From Streptomyces mangrovi (GTDB lineage: Bacteria; Actinomycetota; Actinomycetes; Streptomycetales; Streptomycetaceae): a stretch of 64,000 nt of DNA. The notes below the pieces were generated by a model. That model worked only from the letters and a program-made list of their open reading frames with translations, ran no database searches and was not told where the DNA came from. The stretch lies in the NCBI RefSeq assembly GCF_900114215.1, contig NZ_FOSG01000014.1, positions 62,001 to 126,000 of the forward strand, read 5' to 3'. Position numbers and translations under genes: made by a program. Below, in pieces: positions 11,708 to 20,666 of this stretch (position 1 is its first letter; each line of letters begins with the position of its first letter).

Positions 11708-13618
11708 CTAACCCTCCCGGGCCGCCCCGTCGTCCAGCCCCGCCAGCACCAGCGGCAGCCGGGAGACGCCGTCCGCCGTGACGCGCACGGGAACGCCCCA
11801 GTCCTGCTGGTGGACATGGCAGGCCGGGTACTCCGTCGCAGGGTCGTCGTCGCAGGAGGCGGCCATCGCCGAGACGTGCAGCACACCCTCGGCGACGCCG
11901 TCGGCGAGCACCAGCTCCCGGCTCAGGTCGGTGCCCTGGCCCGCGCCGTCCGCCAGCAGCTCCGGCGGCGTGGAACTGACCAGCAGCCGGGTGGAGGGGC
12001 CGTAGCGGGTGTCGAGCTTCTGGCCGGGCGGGGCCTGGAAGACCACGTCCAGCCGGAGCGCCCCCGGCGCCACCTCGGTCGCCTCGCGCCGGGTGCGGTG
12101 GGCGACGGACTCGACCCGTACCGCCTCCTCGGGCAGCCGCAGCCGGGTCAGCCGGTGGCGGGCGGACTCCACGACCACGATGTCGTCCTCCACCAGGACG
12201 GCGTCGGACGGCTCGCGCAGATCCGTGGCGAGCGTGGTGACCTCGCCGCTCGACGGGTCGTAACGGCGCAGGGCGTGGTTGTAGGTGTCGCAGACCGCCA
12301 CCGATCCGTCGGGCAGCGCGGTGACGCCCAGCGGGTGCTGGAGCAGCGCCTGGCCGGCCGCTCCGTCGCGGTGGCCGAAGTCGAACAGGCCGGTGCCGAC
12401 CGCCGTGCGCAGCACGAACCCGCCGTCGTCACCGCCCTCACCGCCCTCACCGCCGTCACCGTCCGCGGCACGCTCGACCCAGCGCAGCGCCGAGGTCTCG
12501 GAGTCGGCTACCCACAGCCGGTCCCCGGCCGCCGCGAGCCCGGACGGCTGGGCGAACCACGCCTGGTCGGCCGGGCCGTCCACCAGGCCCTCGTTGGTGG
12601 TGCCCGCCGCGACCGAGACCGTCCCCGACTCCGGGTCGTACGCCCAGAGCTGGTGGACGCCCGCCATCGCGACCCACAGCCGCCCCTCCCACCAGGCCAC
12701 GTCCCACGGCGAGGACAGGTCCACCTCGCGCGCGGGCCCGGCCGTCGGCGAGCCCTGCCACCACTGGCGGCCCGTGCCGGCGAGCGTGGTGACCTCGCCG
12801 CTCGTCGGGTCCCAGGCCCGCAGCGCGTGGTTGACGGTGTCGGCGACGGCCACCCTGCCGTCCGGGAGCGGCGCCAGGCCCTGCGGCTCGTTGAAGCGGG
12901 CCTTCCCCCCGGGCCCGTCCGCCAGCCCGCGCGTCCCCTCGCCGATCCGCCGCACCACCGTCTCGCCGTCCGGCTCCAGCTCCACCAGCTGGTGCCGGGT
13001 GGTGTCGGTGACCAGCAGGTTACCCGAGGGCAGGACGAGCGCCTTGCCGGGGAAGCGCAGGTCGGTCGGCTCCGGCTCCGGCGGAACGTACGGGCCGTCG
13101 CCCCGCCGCAGCGTCCCCCTGGCCTCGTGCTCGGCCTCCAGCTCCGTCACCAGCTTCTCGATGGCGTGGACATGGCCCTCGCCCGCGTGCTGGGCGACGA
13201 CGTACCCCTCGGGGTCGATGACGACGAGCGTGGGCCAGGCGCGCACCGCGTACTGCTTCCAGGTCGCCAGCTCGGGGTCGTCCAGGACGGGGTGGTGGAC
13301 ACCGTAGCGCTCGACTGCGTCGACGACGGCCCGGTGCTCGGCCTCGTGGACGAACTTGGGCGAGTGGACGCCGACGACCACCACGGTGTCGCCGTGGCGC
13401 TCCTCCAGCTCGCGCAGCTCGTCGACGACGTGCAGGCAGTTCACGCAGCAGAAGGTCCAGAAGTCGAGGACGGTGATGCGTCCCCGCAGGTCGGCGAGGG
13501 TCAGCTCCTTGCCGCCGGTGTTGAGCCAGCCGCCCTTGCCGATCAGCTCGGGGGCACGGACACGGGCACGTCGGCGGGGCGCGGGCGCGGGGGTGGGCGC
13601 CGGGGCGGCATCGTTCAT
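11708..13618 (-). CDS. Thioredoxin-like/NHL-repeat fusion protein
   Basis: This 636-residue protein has an N-terminal thioredoxin/TlpA-like domain (ITVLDFWTFCCVNCLHVVDEL, redox motif CCVNC) and a C-terminal beta-propeller of NHL repeats (GNLLVTDTTRHQLVEL, GRVAVADTVNHALRAW, GSVAVCDTYNHALRRY). This NHLRC2-like layout is conserved in actinomycetes, with unknown substrate. No signal peptide is evident, so it is probably cytoplasmic. A short in-frame GEGGEGGDDGG insertion around 12420-12460 comes from local tandem repeats. The start ATG overlaps the stop of the upstream DoxX gene by 4 bp, so the two are co-translated. Confidence 0.92.
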   Translation of the reverse strand: MNDAAPAPTPAPAPRRRARVRAPELIGKGGWLNTGGKELTLADLRGRITVLDFWTFCCVNCLHVVDELRELEERHGDTVVVVGVHSPKFVHEAEHRAVVDAVERYGVHHPVLDDPELATWKQYAVRAWPTLVVIDPEGYVVAQHAGEGHVHAIEKLVTELEAEHEARGTLRRGDGPYVPPEPEPTDLRFPGKALVLPSGNLLVTDTTRHQLVELEPDGETVVRRIGEGTRGLADGPGGKARFNEPQGLAPLPDGRVAVADTVNHALRAWDPTSGEVTTLAGTGRQWWQGSPTAGPAREVDLSSPWDVAWWEGRLWVAMAGVHQLWAYDPESGTVSVAAGTTNEGLVDGPADQAWFAQPSGLAAAGDRLWVADSETSALRWVERAADGDGGEGGEGGDDGGFVLRTAVGTGLFDFGHRDGAAGQALLQHPLGVTALPDGSVAVCDTYNHALRRYDPSSGEVTTLATDLREPSDAVLVEDDIVVVESARHRLTRLRLPEEAVRVESVAHRTRREATEVAPGALRLDVVFQAPPGQKLDTRYGPSTRLLVSSTPPELLADGAGQGTDLSRELVLADGVAEGVLHVSAMAASCDDDPATEYPACHVHQQDWGVPVRVTADGVSRLPLVLAGLDDGAAREG

Positions 13619-14097
13619 GCCTTCCAGTGTGTCAATGCCCCGCGCGCGGCCTCGCGCGGCTCCCCGCGGCCCGCGCGGAGGGTGTCCAGCGACCAGCGGC
13701 CGGGGCCGAGGGCGGCTGTCAGCAGGAAGGCCCAGCAGAACAGCGCGGAGGGCTCGCCGCCGTTCTCGATGGGGAACAGGCCCTTGGGCTGGTGCACGAC
13801 GAAGTACGCGTAGGCCATCGAGCCGGAGCAGACCACCGCCGCGGTCCGGGTGAACAGGCCCAGCGCCACCAGGAGGCCGCCGGCGAGCTGGATGACCGCG
13901 GCCCACCAGGAGGGCCACTGGCCGATGTCCGGGACGCGGCCGCCGTGCGGGCCGCCGAGCACGTCGAAGAGGGTGGCCGCGCCGTGGCAGGCGAAGAGGA
14001 GGCCGACGACGGCGCGGAAGAGTCCGACGACGTGGTCGCGGCTCCCGTCCAGGAGGGCCGGGGGGACGGCCGGGGCGGTGGTGGTCTTCCTTCGCAT
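13615..14097 (-). CDS. DoxX-family membrane protein
   Basis: This 160-residue protein has four predicted membrane helices and the DoxX pattern (LFRAVVGLLFACHGAATLFDVLGG; AAVIQLAGGLLVALGLFTR; ALFCWAFLLTAALGPG). DoxX proteins occur with redox enzymes and oxidative-stress systems, and in mycobacteria form membrane oxidoreductase complexes; coupling here to a thioredoxin-like protein fits that. The start ATG at 14097 has a hydrophilic Lys/Arg/Thr leader. Two dre-like DasR sites lie 84-135 bp upstream. Confidence 0.9.
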   Translation of the reverse strand: MRRKTTTAPAVPPALLDGSRDHVVGLFRAVVGLLFACHGAATLFDVLGGPHGGRVPDIGQWPSWWAAVIQLAGGLLVALGLFTRTAAVVCSGSMAYAYFVVHQPKGLFPIENGGEPSALFCWAFLLTAALGPGRWSLDTLRAGRGEPREAARGALTHWKA

Positions 14098-14180
14098 GGT
14101 GTGCTCCTGGGGGGTGGGGGGTCCGCGAGCTTTCCGGACATGCGACGAGGTGCGACTGGGCGGTGCCGGACCGACGAGCA

Positions 14181-14192
14181 TTGGTCTAGACC
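14181..14192. promoter_or_regulatory. dre-like DasR operator, copy 1
   Basis: TTGGTCTAGACC contains the palindromic core GGTCTAGACC of the DasR-responsive element (consensus ACTGGTCTAGACCACT). I count 12 of 16 consensus positions matched. It lies upstream of the doxX gene on the minus strand. Confidence 0.65.
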
Positions 14193-14220
14193 TAGCGCAC
14201 CGTAGCCATGCGCCGACCGG

Positions 14221-14232
14221 TTGTCTAGACCA
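14221..14232. promoter_or_regulatory. dre-like DasR operator, copy 2
   Basis: TTGTCTAGACCA matches 13 of 16 positions of the dre consensus when flanks are included. It lies 40 bp (about four helical turns) from copy 1, which would place two DasR dimers on the same face. Confidence 0.62.
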
Positions 14233-14315
14233 CTCGCGCGTATGTTTCCCGCCGCCGCCCCACAGCCGTTCCCACAGCCGTTCCCGCTGCCGCTCCCATC
14301 CGCCGCGCGGACGCC

Positions 14316-15383
14316 CTACGCGGCCGGGAGCGCGATCCGGGCCGCGACAGGGAGGTGGTCGCTGCCGGTGGCGGGAAGGGTCCACAGGCGGGTGACGGCG
14401 GCGCCGCGGGCCATGACGTGGTCGATCCGGGCGACGGGGAAGGCCGTGGGCCAGCTGAAGGAGAAGCCGTCCGCCGCCTCCCGGCCGGTGGAGTCCACAC
14501 CGGTCAGGACGGGTTCGAGCCCGCGGTCGTCCAGGGCGCCGTTGAAGTCCCCCAGCACGATCACGCGGGCCAGCTCCTCCGCCCGCAGCTCCTCGCCCAG
14601 CAGTGCGGCGCTCTCGTCCCGCCACGCGGTGTCGAAACCGGTCGCGCGGACGCGGACCGAGGGCAGGTGCACCACGTGCACGGCGATGTCGCCGTGCGGG
14701 GTGCGCACCGCGGTGCGCAGTCCGCGGTTCCAGTCCGGGCCGAGGTCCGCGGGACGGATGTCCAGCGGACGGGTGCCGGTCAGAGGGTGCCTGGACCACA
14801 GGCCGACGGTCCCGGCCACCGCGTGGTGGGGGTACTCCCGCGCCAGCGCCTCGCCGTAGGCGGGCAGGGCGGCTGGGGTCAGCTCCTGCAGCGCGACGAT
14901 GTCGGGGCCGACGGCGGCCAGGGCCCGCGCGGTGGCGGCCGGGTCGCGGTTCTCGTCGCTCGCGTTGTGCTGGACGGCCGTGAGGAGGGCGGTACGGGCG
15001 GCGTCGGCGGCGTCCTCACCCCGGGGGGACAGAGCGTCGTGGAAGAGGGCGAGCCAGACCGCCGACGGCAGCGCCAGCGCCACCAGGGCGAGGGCCGAGC
15101 GGCGCACCAGCGCCGCGACCAGCAGCGGGGGTACGGCGAGTCCGAGCCACGGCAGGAAGGACTCCAGCAGGCTGCCCAGACCGAGTACGGCGCCCGGCAC
15201 CAGGGAGTGGAACGCCGCGGCCCCGGCCGTGAGCACGGCGAGCGCGGCGGGGACGCGGCCCCGCGTCCAGGCGGTGCGTCCCGCACCGCCCCGCGCCTCC
15301 CCGCCCCACCGGCGCCGCAGGGCCCTGAGGGCCCTGCGGGCCCACCACAGCCCTACTCGTATCCGCACCCGCGCCCGTGTCAC
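14316..15383 (-). CDS. Membrane-anchored endonuclease/exonuclease/phosphatase-family protein
   Basis: This protein of about 355 residues has a basic N-terminus, two to three hydrophobic segments (residues ~35-110), and then an EEP fold: VQHNASDENRDPAAT, IVALQELTPAALP (metal Glu), VIVLGDFNGALDD (Asp-x-Asn), SFSWPTAFPVARIDHVMA and GSDHLPVAARIAL (catalytic His). The domain probably faces outward and cleaves phosphodiesters or phosphomonoesters of DNA, lipids or inositol phosphates. GTG at 15383 was chosen because GAGGA lies 7 bases upstream; a longer open frame to 15569 lacks support. It ends 218 bp from the doxX start, with the dre sites in between. Confidence 0.85.
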   Translation of the reverse strand: MTRARVRIRVGLWWARRALRALRRRWGGEARGGAGRTAWTRGRVPAALAVLTAGAAAFHSLVPGAVLGLGSLLESFLPWLGLAVPPLLVAALVRRSALALVALALPSAVWLALFHDALSPRGEDAADAARTALLTAVQHNASDENRDPAATARALAAVGPDIVALQELTPAALPAYGEALAREYPHHAVAGTVGLWSRHPLTGTRPLDIRPADLGPDWNRGLRTAVRTPHGDIAVHVVHLPSVRVRATGFDTAWRDESAALLGEELRAEELARVIVLGDFNGALDDRGLEPVLTGVDSTGREAADGFSFSWPTAFPVARIDHVMARGAAVTRLWTLPATGSDHLPVAARIALPAA

Positions 15384-15894
15384 CCTCCGATCCTCGCCGA
15401 AGGGCCACCGACCTGCCGAACCAGTTCCGGGCGAGGCGCCGCACGTCCGGGACTCCGGGACAGGCCCGGACGAATCCGGCCGGAGGCCGGAGAAGGACGG
15501 AAGGAATGTGGCTGGAGGTCCGGGATATCCGCCCCAACACTCCGCGGCCACATCTCGCCCCGCCGTCACACCTCGGCCATGTTCCGTCCGGAACCCACCG
15601 CCCCGAACAGGACAGAGTGATCAAGCTCGTCGGCCGGTGCTCCGACTCCAGGACGTAACCACCAGTGCCACTCCGCAGGCCGATCGACAAGTCGTTCGGC
15701 CAGTTCGGGCGGCAATTGCCGCCCGGCGAACCGGCCTCCAGCCCCACGAACGGAGCCCACGACCCGCCTGTCCTGGCGCGTTTCCAGCGGTCCGGCACAT
15801 CCGTCGCCAGAAATCCCTTGCGTCAACGCTTCCCCCCCTCATGAGCATCTTCGGTGTCCGATCAAGTTCTCGAAATCAGACACTTGGGGGAAAT
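15384..15894. other. 511-bp intergenic region, possible gene remnant
   Basis: No confident gene. A minus-strand frame (15566-15826) encodes a segment reading PELAERLVDRPAEWHWWL that looks protein-like (Trp-rich, balanced composition) but has no start site or family I can name; it may be a decayed small gene. Local GC falls toward the right end, where the promoter and operator of the secreted-protein gene should lie. Confidence 0.35.
15855..15882. promoter_or_regulatory. Imperfect inverted repeat upstream of the secreted-protein gene
   Basis: TGTCCGAT (15855-15862) faces ATCAGACA (15875-15882), with one mismatched position and a 12-nt centre. It lies 12 bp before the ATG of the secreted protein and could be an operator or a 5'-leader hairpin. 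Confidence 0.4.
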
Positions 15895-16239
15895 ATGCGT
15901 TTCGGAAAGCTGGGCATAGCGGTTTTCTCCGCCGGTGCGCTCTTCTTCGGAGCACCCACAGCAGCCACCGCGTTGACGAGTTACAACGGCAACGACTACT
16001 CGTACGACAGCCAGAGCCGCGAGAGAATGACCGCTTGCGATCAGGAGAGCGACTCCACCCCCGTCAAGGGCGAGTACTACAACGTCAACGATGGCACCAA
16101 GCGTGACGTCAAGGACTCCGACGGCAACAACGGCGTCTGCGCCAGCGAGGGCAACGGGGCCGGGAAGGTGCTCAAGCACAAGACCTGCGAGTACCGCTCG
16201 CTGTGGCCGGACGCGTGCGGCAACTGGCAGTCTTACTGA
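15895..16239 (+). CDS. Small secreted four-cysteine protein
   Basis: This 114-residue protein follows GGGGGA. The N-terminus is a classical signal peptide (MRFGKLGIAVFSAGALFF, then an Ala/Thr region), with probable cleavage after ATA at residue 26. The mature ~88 residues are hydrophilic, rich in Asp, Asn, Ser and Tyr, with Cys at 48, 82, 98 and 108 (two possible disulfides) and the C-terminus CGNWQSY. Codon and base composition are less GC-rich than the neighbours. It is followed by a hairpin and by ABC ATPase and permease genes, an arrangement like lactococcin-972-type bacteriocin operons, but the peptide lacks that family's sequence pattern. I do not recognise a family; antimicrobial, signalling and envelope-stress roles are all possible. 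Confidence 0.75.
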   Translation: MRFGKLGIAVFSAGALFFGAPTAATALTSYNGNDYSYDSQSRERMTACDQESDSTPVKGEYYNVNDGTKRDVKDSDGNNGVCASEGNGAGKVLKHKTCEYRSLWPDACGNWQSY

Positions 16240-16248
16240 TCCGATGTC

Positions 16249-16296
16249 CGGCCGGTCCGTGCTCCTGTCACCGCTCGCACGGGCGCGGACCGGCCG
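16249..16296 (+). terminator. Hairpin between secreted protein and ABC genes (attenuator-like)
   Basis: An 11-bp perfect inverted repeat (16249-16259 and 16286-16296) with a 26-nt loop lies 10 bp after the secreted-protein stop. Partial read-through would give much more peptide than transporter from one promoter. Confidence 0.55.
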
Positions 16297-16359
16297 TTCC
16301 GTCCCCGACCGTGCCGTTTTCCCGTGGAAGGGAAGTGAACCGGCATACAGGAGAAGCAC

Positions 16360-17085
16360 GTGAAAGAGCGGACCGAGAACATGGACCCTCTGCTCAACAT
16401 GAGGGAAATCACGGTGGAACTCCCCCGCCGCGTTCTGCTGAGAGGAGTGAATTTAAGCGTCCGGGCGGGCGAGGCCGTGGCGATCGTCGGACCGTCCGGC
16501 AGCGGCAAGACGACACTGCTCAACTGCGCGGCCGGACTGGTGCGCCCGCAGAGCGGCACGGTGGTCGTCGCCGGACGGAACATCGGTGAAACGTCCGACG
16601 ACGAGACGGCGGGGCACCGGCTCTCCCACATCGGAATGGTCTTCCAGTTCGGCGAACTGATGCCCGAGTTGAGCGTCGTCGACAACGTGGCCCTGCCTGC
16701 GCTTTTCGCCGGGTACGCCGATGCGCGGGAGCGAGCGGCGGAACTGCTCTCCCTCGTCGGTCTCGACGGCTACGGCGACCGCGCTCCGGAGGAGTTGTCC
16801 GGAGGTGAGACACAGCGTGCGGCCATCGCTCGGGCGCTGGTGTGCGAGCCGGCCCTGGTGCTGGCGGACGAGCCCACCGGATCACTCGACGAGGAGAACG
16901 TCCGGCTGGTGACCGGAGTACTGCTGGATGCCTGCCGCCGGCGCGGCGCGGCACTCGTCGTGGCAACGCATGACGCGTCCGTCGCGGCGTCGATGGACCG
17001 GAGTACAAGACTGCGCGGCGGTGTACTGGAATCCTTGGACCTTCTGCCGGACGCCCTGCCGGCCGACGGGGGGCGACGCCCGTGA
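16360..17085 (+). CDS. ABC transporter ATP-binding protein (LolD/MacB type)
   Basis: This 241-residue ATPase is complete: Walker A GPSGSGKTT, Q-loop MVFQFGELMPEL, signature LSGGETQRAAIARAL, Walker B LVLADEPTGSLD, and the H-loop in VVATHDASV. The sequence is closest to ATPases that pair with FtsX-like permeases. The GTG start at 16360 follows AGGAG; an ATG seven codons later is possible. Its stop overlaps the permease start (GTGA). With the permease it would form a mechanotransmission-type (type VII) ABC complex that expels or senses peptides rather than importing solutes. Confidence 0.93.
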   Translation: MKERTENMDPLLNMREITVELPRRVLLRGVNLSVRAGEAVAIVGPSGSGKTTLLNCAAGLVRPQSGTVVVAGRNIGETSDDETAGHRLSHIGMVFQFGELMPELSVVDNVALPALFAGYADARERAAELLSLVGLDGYGDRAPEELSGGETQRAAIARALVCEPALVLADEPTGSLDEENVRLVTGVLLDACRRRGAALVVATHDASVAASMDRSTRLRGGVLESLDLLPDALPADGGRRP

Positions 17086-19214
17086 ACGCGGCTTCGGCCA
17101 CCCGCCGTATGGCGGTACGGCTGGCGTGGGGGGCTCACCGCGAGCAGCGGCTGCGACTGGTGCTGCTCACCGCGGTCGCCGTGATCACCACGGTGGTCTC
17201 CCTGTTCGCCACCGCGGTGGTGTATTCCCTGATGGAGGAACGGGAACGGTTCGACGCACGTGCGGTGCGGCTGGCGGACGAGGGGACCCGCCCTCTGGTG
17301 CGAGTCAACCTCCGGACGGATACCTGGGAACGGGAACAGTTCCCCGTCGTTTGGCTGGACCCGCTGGACGACCGCGACCCGCGCGCGCTTCCACCCGGTA
17401 TGAAGGAGTGGCCCCGGCCCGGCGGCTGGTACGTGTCCCCCGGGCTGGCCTCACTGGCCGCCGGGGAGCCGCGGCTGGCCGAGCGCTTCCCCGGCGCCTC
17501 CGTGCTCGCCGACGAGGGAGTCCTGCACCCTGGTGAGCTCCTGGCCTACCGGCTCATGCCCAGCGGCGGGGAGATGGGCGCGGACATCCTCGAGGCCACC
17601 GGATTCGGTGGGGCACGCGAAGGACGCGGCATGCCCATCGGCGACGATACGGAGATCGACGTCCCGGCCATGGCACTCGCCGTCGGCGGCTTCGTCGGCG
17701 TTCCTCTGCTGTTGCTCGCCATGACCGGGACGGCCGTGTCGGCACCGCTGCGGGCACAGCGCATGGCCCTGCTGGGTGCCATCGGGCTGCCTGGGCGCTG
17801 GCGCAGGCGGCTGCTGGGTTACGAGTCTCTGCTGACGACGGGTCCGGGGGTGGTGGCCGGAGCCGCTCTGTGGTGTGCCGTCGGCCCGCTGCCGGACGCT
17901 CTCCCCTTGGTCGGTCGTCCCATAGCCGCCGGCGCGCTGGTACCGCCGTACTGGCTTGTCCTGTCGGTCTCCGCCGCTGTTCTCGTGCTGTTCGCCGGCC
18001 TTTCCCTGGTTACAGACCAGATCCGCCGTACCCGGCGCGACCGGCAGTCGCCGCGGCCGCGTGCCGGACGGCCGGCGCTGCGCGCGCTCCGGCTTGCTCC
18101 GGCCGCCGCGGGAGCCGGTCTGCTGGTGGCGGCTTCGCTGCGGGAAGGACACGCCGCGGCGGTCAGCGCCCTGTCCGGCACCGTTCTGCTGGCCGCCGGA
18201 GTGCCTCTCGCCCTGCCTGTCGTCGCCCGGCTGCTGGCGGCCCGGCTGGCCGACACATCGGCCGATCCGGTGAGGATGATGGCCGGACGCAGGCTTCAGT
18301 ACGATCCGCGGTCCGCCGTCAAACCGCTGTACGGGATCGCCGCACTGCTCGTGGTCGTGCCGGTGGTCGCGGCCTGGATGGCCAGCGCCCGCCAGGCCGA
18401 CCCGCCGGCGCCGCGGGATGAGCGGGTGGAGTCCGTCGTCCTCCGGGGTGCACTCGACCGGCTCGACATAGAGAAGTTCACAGGCCGGGTGCCCGGCACT
18501 GTGGCCGCCCGGATTCACATCGTCGAATCGGCCACCGCCAATGCCGAGCCCTCGGCCCGGCTGTCCGCAGCCTGTTCGGACCTCGGCTCCGTACTCGGTG
18601 GCGAAGCGTGTTCACGTCCCGGGACGCTGCGCCCCGCCGCTGCGGAGCGTCTGCGGCGCATCGCCGGCCTGCCGATGCCCCTCGACCCGAAGCTGCGTCC
18701 GCCGCCGCTGCGGGAGGAACTCACCAAGACCGACTCATTGCTGGTGTTGGGAGCGCGGAGCCCTGCCTTCGAACTCGAACTGCGTACCGCCGCTCTGCGG
18801 CAACCCGTCGCACTGACTGTGCTCTCCGAGGATGATCTGGCGACTCGGGAATCGAAACTCGTCGCCTGGATCTTCGGCGGACTGGCCGTACTGGTCTCAC
18901 TGGTGTTCTGCACGCTCGCGATCGGAGTCGTCGACCGGAGCGCCGCCGGCCGGCGTGACGCACGGTTGCTGATCGCGATCGGACTGACCAGGAACCGGGT
19001 GCGGGAGATCGCCGGGCGTGAATTCCTGCTGGGATACGGAGCCGTGGTGGGATCGGGACTCACCGTGGGAGTCATCGCGGCCGCCGTCTGGAACTCCCTC
19101 GACCCCGCGGTTCCCTACCCGGCCGGTGTGACGCTGGTGACCGCCGCGGTGGCCACCGCTCTCGGTGCGATCGGTCTGCTCGGCGTGCGCGGTTACGGGA
19201 CCGCCCGCCCCTGA
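17082..19214 (+). CDS. FtsX-like ABC permease, 710 aa
   Basis: The protein has a hydrophobic N-terminal helix (residues ~20-45), an extracytoplasmic domain (~45-190), a central block of helices (~190-310), a second block (~330-430), another extracytoplasmic stretch (~430-590) and a final three-helix FtsX-type block (~590-700, with ERRD-like RSAAGRRDARLLIAIGLTRNRVREI). This duplicated FtsX layout matches permeases of antimicrobial-peptide resistance or bacteriocin-associated ABC systems. It is translationally coupled to the ATPase and lies downstream of the secreted Cys-rich protein, so export, immunity or sensing of that protein is the simplest reading. Substrate unknown. Confidence 0.85.
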   Translation: MNAASATRRMAVRLAWGAHREQRLRLVLLTAVAVITTVVSLFATAVVYSLMEERERFDARAVRLADEGTRPLVRVNLRTDTWEREQFPVVWLDPLDDRDPRALPPGMKEWPRPGGWYVSPGLASLAAGEPRLAERFPGASVLADEGVLHPGELLAYRLMPSGGEMGADILEATGFGGAREGRGMPIGDDTEIDVPAMALAVGGFVGVPLLLLAMTGTAVSAPLRAQRMALLGAIGLPGRWRRRLLGYESLLTTGPGVVAGAALWCAVGPLPDALPLVGRPIAAGALVPPYWLVLSVSAAVLVLFAGLSLVTDQIRRTRRDRQSPRPRAGRPALRALRLAPAAAGAGLLVAASLREGHAAAVSALSGTVLLAAGVPLALPVVARLLAARLADTSADPVRMMAGRRLQYDPRSAVKPLYGIAALLVVVPVVAAWMASARQADPPAPRDERVESVVLRGALDRLDIEKFTGRVPGTVAARIHIVESATANAEPSARLSAACSDLGSVLGGEACSRPGTLRPAAAERLRRIAGLPMPLDPKLRPPPLREELTKTDSLLVLGARSPAFELELRTAALRQPVALTVLSEDDLATRESKLVAWIFGGLAVLVSLVFCTLAIGVVDRSAAGRRDARLLIAIGLTRNRVREIAGREFLLGYGAVVGSGLTVGVIAAAVWNSLDPAVPYPAGVTLVTAAVATALGAIGLLGVRGYGTARP

Positions 19215-19443
19215 GCCCCCGTTCTTCCACCAGTCGGCGGCCGCCGGGAGGAACTCCCGGAAGAGCACGGGCCGGAGGGGAGCGCGACGGTCGCGGACCA
19301 CCACACCGGTGGTGTGGGCGGGGCGCGGGGAACGCGGCACCGCCGCCCGGGCGAGCACGGCACGGCGATCCACCCGTGCCCCCGGAGGCCCAGCCCCGTC
19401 CTCCATGCCCCACCACCGCTGCGGTGCTGGGCCGGAGCGGGGC

Positions 19444-19734
19444 TCAGATGTTCTTGGGGTCGAACGGGTCGTGCTCGGTGATCAGCTTGTCCAGCCGGGC
19501 CTTGTCCACGCGGGTGGTCACCTCCTGCATCTCCTGCCGGTCCCGCACGCACTTGGCCAGCGTGAAGGTGGAGGAGATCAGGAAGAGGACGCCGACCGCC
19601 AGGAAGCCGCGCTCCCACGGCCCCATCGGCATGTAGGCGACACCGAGGCCCACGGCGAGCAGCGAGAGCGCGAAGGAGGCGGCGGCCTGCACGAAGAACG
19701 CGGCGGTGGTGGGCCGCTGGACTGGTGTGGTCAT
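19444..19734 (-). CDS. YiaA/YiaB-like small membrane protein
   Basis: This 96-residue protein has two membrane helices (AAFFVQAAASFALSLLAVGLG and GFLAVGVLFLISSTFTLAK) and a charged C-terminal tail (VDKARLDKLITEHDPFDP). It matches the YiaA/YiaB inner-membrane family common in Streptomyces, of unknown function. The start chosen is MTTPVQRP at 19734; a 12-codon upstream extension is less likely. The 229 bp between it and the convergent permease gene contain only a weak CCGGGAG/CTCCCGG hairpin (19244-19260). Confidence 0.8.
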   Translation of the reverse strand: MTTPVQRPTTAAFFVQAAASFALSLLAVGLGVAYMPMGPWERGFLAVGVLFLISSTFTLAKCVRDRQEMQEVTTRVDKARLDKLITEHDPFDPKNI

Positions 19735-19841
19735 GGCCACCACGGTGGCGCGGCCCGGCGGCGTCCGCATGAGTACGGCTACTCAACGCCTCCGGGGGCA
19801 GGGGCGGGGACGACGGCGGCGGACGGCGGGGACTCGCGCGC

Positions 19842-20666
19842 TCAGCGCAGCACCCGGTCCCGCAGGACGGGGAAGTCCTCGCGGACCCTGTCGACGTACG
19901 CCGGGTCCAGTTCGGCGGTGACGACCCGCTCCCCGGCGTCCGGTGCCTCGGCCAGGGTCTCGCCCCAGGGGTCGATGATCGCGCTGCGGCCCGCCTGGGG
20001 GACGCCCGCGTGGGTGCCCGCGGTGCCGCAGGCCAGGACGTACGCCTGGTTCTCCACGGCGCGGGCGCGGGCCAGCAGGGACCAGTGGGAGGCGCGGCGG
20101 GCGGGCCAGCCCGCCGGGATCACCAGCGCCCGGGCGCCGGCGTCGGTCAGCGCGCGGAACAGTTCGGGGAAGCGCAGGTCGTAGCAGGTGGCCAGGCCCA
20201 GGGTGATGCCGGGCAGATCGACGGTGACCGGTTCGGCTCCGGCGGACATCAAGGTGGCCTCGCCGCGGTCGAAGCCGAAGCGGTGGATCTTGCGGTACGC
20301 GGCGGCCCGTTCACCGTCGGGGGAGAAGACCAGGGAGGTGTTGTACAGGGCCGTTCCCCCTCCCGTTCCGCCGGGGCCGCCGGCGTGCTCGGCGCGTTCC
20401 ACGACGGACCCGGCGTGCAGCCAGACGCGCGCCTCGCGGGCCGCCTCGGACATGGCCCGCGCGGTGGGCCCGTCCAGCGGCTCGGCGCCGGCCTCGAAGG
20501 AGTCGAAGGCGAAGGCCCCGACCGTCCACAGCTCGGGCAGGACGACCAGATCGGAGGCGGTCTGCTCGCGGACGAGCGAGGCGGCCCGCGCGCGGCGCGC
20601 TTCGACCGTTTCGTCCCCGTCCACACCGATCTGAATGAGGGAGGCGCGCACCGTACCACCGTCCAT
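19842..20666 (-). CDS. Carbon-nitrogen hydrolase (nitrilase superfamily)
   Basis: This 274-residue protein has the catalytic triad Glu (VVLPELW), Lys (YRKIHRFGFD) and Cys (GLATCYDLRFPE) of the nitrilase/amidase superfamily. Family members hydrolyse amides such as omega-amidic acids or deaminated glutathione; this one's substrate is not evident. The start ATG at 20666 follows the natural N-terminus (VRASLIQIGVD). It diverges from a mycothiol-dependent enzyme gene; the 162-bp gap contains an 11-bp tandem repeat (GGTCGAAAGCA-type, around 20689-20710). Confidence 0.9.
   Translation of the reverse strand: MDGGTVRASLIQIGVDGDETVEARRARAASLVREQTASDLVVLPELWTVGAFAFDSFEAGAEPLDGPTARAMSEAAREARVWLHAGSVVERAEHAGGPGGTGGGTALYNTSLVFSPDGERAAAYRKIHRFGFDRGEATLMSAGAEPVTVDLPGITLGLATCYDLRFPELFRALTDAGARALVIPAGWPARRASHWSLLARARAVENQAYVLACGTAGTHAGVPQAGRSAIIDPWGETLAEAPDAGERVVTAELDPAYVDRVREDFPVLRDRVLR

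Follow-up and report, generated by a model that had tools for sequence, protein, structure and literature searches.

Our in silico analysis of a 64,000-nucleotide stretch of the Streptomyces mangrovi genome (hereafter, the window) reveals a three-gene cassette that is a real, undescribed and mobile unit composed of a secreted protein and a type VII ABC transporter. As the best, still tentative, explanation we infer that the secreted protein acts on the cell envelope in the manner of a bacteriocin and that the dedicated ABC transporter protects the producer; the proposed toxicity, its target, the self-protection and the function of an intergenic stem all belong to this inference. Gene content, secretion signal, fold model, cysteine covariation, co-inheritance, accessory and plasmid distribution, and transporter class come from computation.

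The cassette lies on the forward strand of the window. Its first gene (15895..16239) encodes a protein of 114 amino acids with a signal peptide at about residues 1-26, as judged from the translation and the homologues. It is followed by a hairpin (16250..16295), the gene for a LolD/MacB-type ABC ATPase (16360..17085), and the gene for a permease of 710 amino acids with a duplicated FtsX domain (17082..19214). A gene for an EEP protein (14316-15569) is oriented divergently, on the minus strand, 5' of the cassette, and a gene for a 108-amino-acid protein (19444-19770), likewise on the minus strand, is found 3' of it. As had been predicted, the ATPase and permease genes are coupled (they overlap by 4 bp) and the cassette is less GC-rich than its surroundings (69.9%, compared to 73% for the window and 62% for the small gene), which places it at about the 5th percentile among equally long stretches of the window. 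The 11-bp hairpin of the original prediction is present as well; its stem, at about 16 bp, is larger than stated.

Consistent with the original prediction, the translation of the small gene starts with a hydrophobic signal, which leaves a mature protein of about 88 residues with four cysteines, and neither the protein nor its relatives (family A6) have a meaningful match in Pfam, NCBIfam or the PDB. A single-sequence search detected relatives with 26-37% identity in 25 of 295 Streptomyces genomes, and further loci were collected by profile and pattern searches. The alignment of the family is characterized by three near-invariant aspartates (D49, D53, D106), a core motif (D-x-E-x-D-G-x-x-V-K-A-E-Y-Y-R) and an end motif (R-x-C-E-x5-P-D-x-C-S-x-W). 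Among 30 diverse members, the first and second cysteines are jointly present or absent in 29 and the third and fourth in 28, the exceptions being due in part to shifted alignment positions. Since the cysteines are gained and lost as pairs, the alignment supports two putative disulfides, C48-C82 and C98-C108. In pairwise comparisons of close homologues, omega was about 0.17 (small protein), 0.12 (ATPase) and 0.20 (permease). This purifying selection indicates that the three are real genes, and the occurrence of such homologues in many Streptomyces takes the cassette beyond chance. Diversifying selection, and with it an arms-race signal, was not found for the small protein (omega 0.17).

An AlphaFold2 model built from a 20-row alignment has a pLDDT of about 90 across most of the mature part and contains seven strands; the mature protein is thus confidently modelled as a beta-sandwich. 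Foldseek returned no match at E values up to 1e-3, and the fold searches yielded generic beta-sandwiches with a single outlier, a secreted-type EEP enzyme from Beutenbergia (4ruw; VIA-align Z 9.4 over 95 residues, rmsd 4.5; all others Z ≤5.8). We treat this match as a fold lead only; 4ruw was not retrieved with the neighboring EEP protein of the window. The solved structure of Lcn972 did not appear among the matches listed, an absence that carries no weight. An enzyme motif was not detected in the small protein, and none of the 45 homologues inspected possesses a lipobox, a sortase motif or a hydrophobic segment in its mature part, so that all 45 are predicted to be soluble and devoid of an anchor. 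The mature homologues are mostly acidic.

The ATPase carries the expected signatures (Walker A GPSGSGKT, signature LSGGE, Walker B LVLADEPTG) and matches PF00005 (E 8.9e-36). Its best NCBIfam match is LolD (195 bits), followed by FtsE, MacB and YbbA, all of them below the curated cut-offs. The permease exceeds the cut-off of the FtsX family (PF02687) in more than one stretch, in keeping with the predicted duplication. Its model (pTM 0.67, with a weaker C-terminal half) contains ten long helices, the first and the seventh of which are each followed by an extracellular domain (residues ~61-193 and ~440-582, respectively), and VIA-align matched it to YbbP (Z 15.5, 343 residues aligned, rmsd 5.1), BceB (Z 15.3), HrtB, LolC/E, MacB and FtsX. 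The permease therefore models as a 10-helix type VII ABC permease of the kind represented by YbbP, BceB, LolCDE and MacB, and the cassette combines the two hallmarks of this class, a LolD/MacB-type ATPase and an FtsX-fold permease with large extracytoplasmic domains. EnvC, LolA, MacA and TesA are partner proteins of such type VII systems in E. coli. Type VII ABC systems carry out mechanical work outside the membrane, typically together with an extracytoplasmic partner (PMC12646458), and this transporter class consequently fits both self-protection and a partner role of the small protein. Export of the small protein by the ABC pair, as the adjacency of the genes might suggest, is highly improbable: 44 of the 45 homologues, like the S. 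mangrovi protein, possess their own N-terminal signal, and type VII systems are reported to lack a transmembrane conduit (PMC12646458). Type VII permeases such as BceAB also sense extracellular ligands, and the match to BceB would be compatible with the small protein being a secreted signal that is perceived via the transporter in a BceAB-like or FtsEX-like relay. We consider this improbable, since the cassette lacks conserved regulatory companions, histidine kinases and response regulators included.

The association of the small protein with the transporter is nearly absolute among close homologues, which bears out the proposal that a family of secreted proteins with a transporter of its own had gone unnoticed. 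In all 48 strong homologue loci that remained after removal of redundancy at 93% permease identity, a permease gene is located directly downstream on the same strand, and in 45 of them the ATPase gene lies in between; the three loci without an ATPase gene (L063, L065, L125) have the small protein and the permease next to each other. The only strong homologue seen to lack any transporter (L119) is itself an N-terminally truncated relic. These loci had been collected on the basis of the small protein; the reverse test started from the permease, with a profile of its N-terminal part (A5) that was run against 121 Streptomyces genomes. It returned 23 matches of at least 148 bits, followed by a gap down to 112 bits. 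Beside these 23 subfamily permeases, the small gene is intact in 18 cases, truncated in two (L139, L157/L213) and was not detected in three (L156/L214, L158/L215, L166/L216). A preponderance of homologues without the transporter, named in the original prediction as evidence against it, is thus not found among the close homologues; it does hold for distant ones (profile E 1e-9 to 1e-13), which are mostly orphans, while a weak homologue, L144, has the cassette. The transporter-less distant homologues include L145, L147 and L148, and some of them (L145, L147) are situated next to integrase-like or conjugation-like genes of mobile elements; a further distant orphan is present in the S. mangrovi genome itself (C10:64088; L105:6044-6418). 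The divergence of the small protein correlates with that of the permease (Mantel rho 0.66, p 0.001), and this correlation is not highest for the extracellular domains of the permease.

These data also bear on the chief competing explanation, according to which the small protein would be an obligate extracytoplasmic partner of a YbbP-like type VII system that aids in the extraction or processing of an envelope or external compound, making the cassette a device for resistance or lipid handling and not a weapon. The near-absolute co-occurrence, the correlated divergence and the persistence of the small protein-permease pair at loci devoid of an ATPase gene are all in line with such a function, as are the YbbP-like topology of the permease (10 helices, two ectodomains) and the habit of type VII transporters to pair with an extracytoplasmic protein (PMC12646458). 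Yet an unanchored protein would be lost to the medium in a Gram-positive host, no enzyme motif is apparent, the small gene is truncated or undetected beside five of the transporters, and the intergenic stem suggests unequal dosage. We regard a partner function as possible but rather unlikely.

The intergenic stem at 16250-16295 has an MFE z of -2.7, and it recurs across the family. For the gaps between the small gene and the ATPase gene at 30 loci, the mean z relative to shuffled sequences was -3.0, compared to -1.1 for 22 control gaps (Mann-Whitney p ~1e-4); values below -1.65 were reached in 24 of the 30 cassettes and in 6 of the 22 controls. The stronger structure of these gaps suggests that the stem is probably an attenuator or a processing stem, which would result in an excess of the small protein over the transporter. 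Upstream of the cassettes, motifs of the ECF or sigma-70 type were not enriched, and an inverted GAA-N16-18-TTC pattern was slightly over-represented (10 occurrences, with 4.5 expected).

The permease subfamily has a patchy distribution (19 of 121 Streptomyces genomes), and the S. mangrovi genome possesses three diverged copies of the cassette. Since a sample of 296 genomes across the phylum contained no permease match at or below 1e-30 outside the window's own genome, the transporter clade is largely Streptomyces-centered; rarer members are found in Streptosporangium (L065) and in two other families. In four relatives, the conserved flanking genes (a thioredoxin/NHL-repeat gene and a nitrilase gene) adjoin without a cassette between them. 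This interval (13618-19842 in the window) is variable, with other content of 0.9-4.1 kb in the four relatives. In L114 the cassette lies between apparent argS-lysA and apparent hom-thrC genes. Four cassettes on annotated Streptomyces plasmids stand alone among unrelated genes, and one of these (L079) is flanked by transposases and contains two tandem small genes.

Under the bacteriocin-like interpretation that we tentatively favor, an unmodified, disulfide-stabilized beta-sandwich protein would leave the cell via the general secretory pathway, produced in excess of the transporter owing to the intergenic stem, and, in related actinomycetes, would attach to a target situated either at the membrane's outer face or in the cell wall. 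The producer would owe its protection to the ATPase-permease pair, which would detach either the small protein or the target of that protein from the membrane surface. We base this interpretation on the fact that strong homologues always adjoin the permease and nearly always the ATPase, and on the survival of 5 of the 23 transporters beside a truncated or missing small gene while the reverse is found only in the relic L119, a pattern that points to an asymmetry in which the toxin is lost and the immunity kept. It is further favored by the plasmid-borne cassettes, the cassette-less interval in four relatives, the patchiness and the three diverged copies, and by the soluble, unanchored nature of the proteins, the recurrent hairpin and the resemblance of the permease to BceAB and MacB. 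Several findings argue against it: the lack of diversifying selection, the mostly acidic mature proteins, a Mantel signal that is not strongest for the ectodomains, and the distant relatives without a transporter. The three ATPase-less loci are likewise awkward for an ATP-driven immunity, unless the ATPase is shared in trans.

Permeases of a sister clade (80-112 bits) are preceded, in the same gene order, by an unannotated second secreted family, A7 (L168, L170, L173-L175, L178, L205, L208-L212, L217). Its members comprise about 135-146 amino acids with the conserved motifs NHGAFEW and RVCRDRGSLxPDNCS. The RVC-x-PD-x-C-S ending is common to A7 and A6, and with an hhalign E value of 7e-5 (probability 63%) the two families are probably homologous. 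More distant permeases (L176, L177, L207) are accompanied by a PadR-like regulator in place of a secreted protein. It is conceivable, if doubtful, that A6 and A7 together form an undescribed, Streptomyces-centered superfamily of secreted beta-sandwich effectors, each clade with its own type VII permease clade, and thus a plasmid-spread, non-lactococcin weapon with immunity by target extraction.

If killing is indeed the function of the cassette, protein bacteriocins that are unmodified and rely on a transporter for immunity would form a class that is common in Streptomyces but unannotated; should the small protein prove to be a partner subunit instead, the type VII ABC systems of Gram-positive bacteria would gain a new kind of accessory protein. 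In both cases the question lends itself to testing, since the unit is compact, plasmid-borne and made up of three genes.

Among known systems, the umbrella toxins of Streptomyces (UmbABC) are similar by description: they are secreted, act against bacteria and have a small protein among their components, whereas the cassette lacks ALF-repeat and trypsin-like genes. An ABC transporter goes unmentioned in the text of the umbrella toxin paper (PMC11062931). The BceAB antimicrobial-peptide transporters share a 10-helix type VII permease with the cassette but have a single large ectodomain (TM7-TM8), whereas the cassette permease has an additional one between TM1 and TM2 (residues ~61-193); a BceS-type sensor kinase or two-component system is absent from the window's cassette and from the annotated plasmid cassettes. 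YbbAP-TesA of E. coli likewise combines a LolD-class ATPase with a 10-helix permease possessing two large extracytoplasmic domains; its partner, however, is a lipase, unlike the modelled beta-sandwich without an enzyme motif found here, and the identity is only about 10%.

The lactococcin 972/streptococcin B loci (PF09683) resemble the cassette in that a small Sec-type precursor is encoded beside a permease of about 700 amino acids and an ABC ATPase. A further trait of the lactococcin 972 family is killing directed at lipid II. The streptococcin B family precursor has been described as a beta-sandwich, and the functions of the B and C genes of these loci are without experimental verification (PMC11796350). 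We reject membership of the cassette in this family on grounds of sequence, permease and gene order. The small protein had no PF09683 match at E values up to 10, and hhalign comparisons with the Streptomyces precursors and between the two permease profiles each gave a probability of 0.3%, so that the predicted difference of the precursor is confirmed. The predicted likeness in gene order fails: where all three genes could be read (L106 and L111 among the loci L106-L108 and L111), Streptomyces lactococcin-972 loci are arranged as precursor, permease (~670-700 amino acids) and ATPase, whereas the order here is precursor, ATPase and permease. One of these loci (L111:6946-8196) contains two divergent, near-identical lactococcin-972 precursors, with the permease and ATPase genes following one of them. 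By analogy, the cassette may nevertheless work like a lactococcin-972 locus to which it is unrelated.
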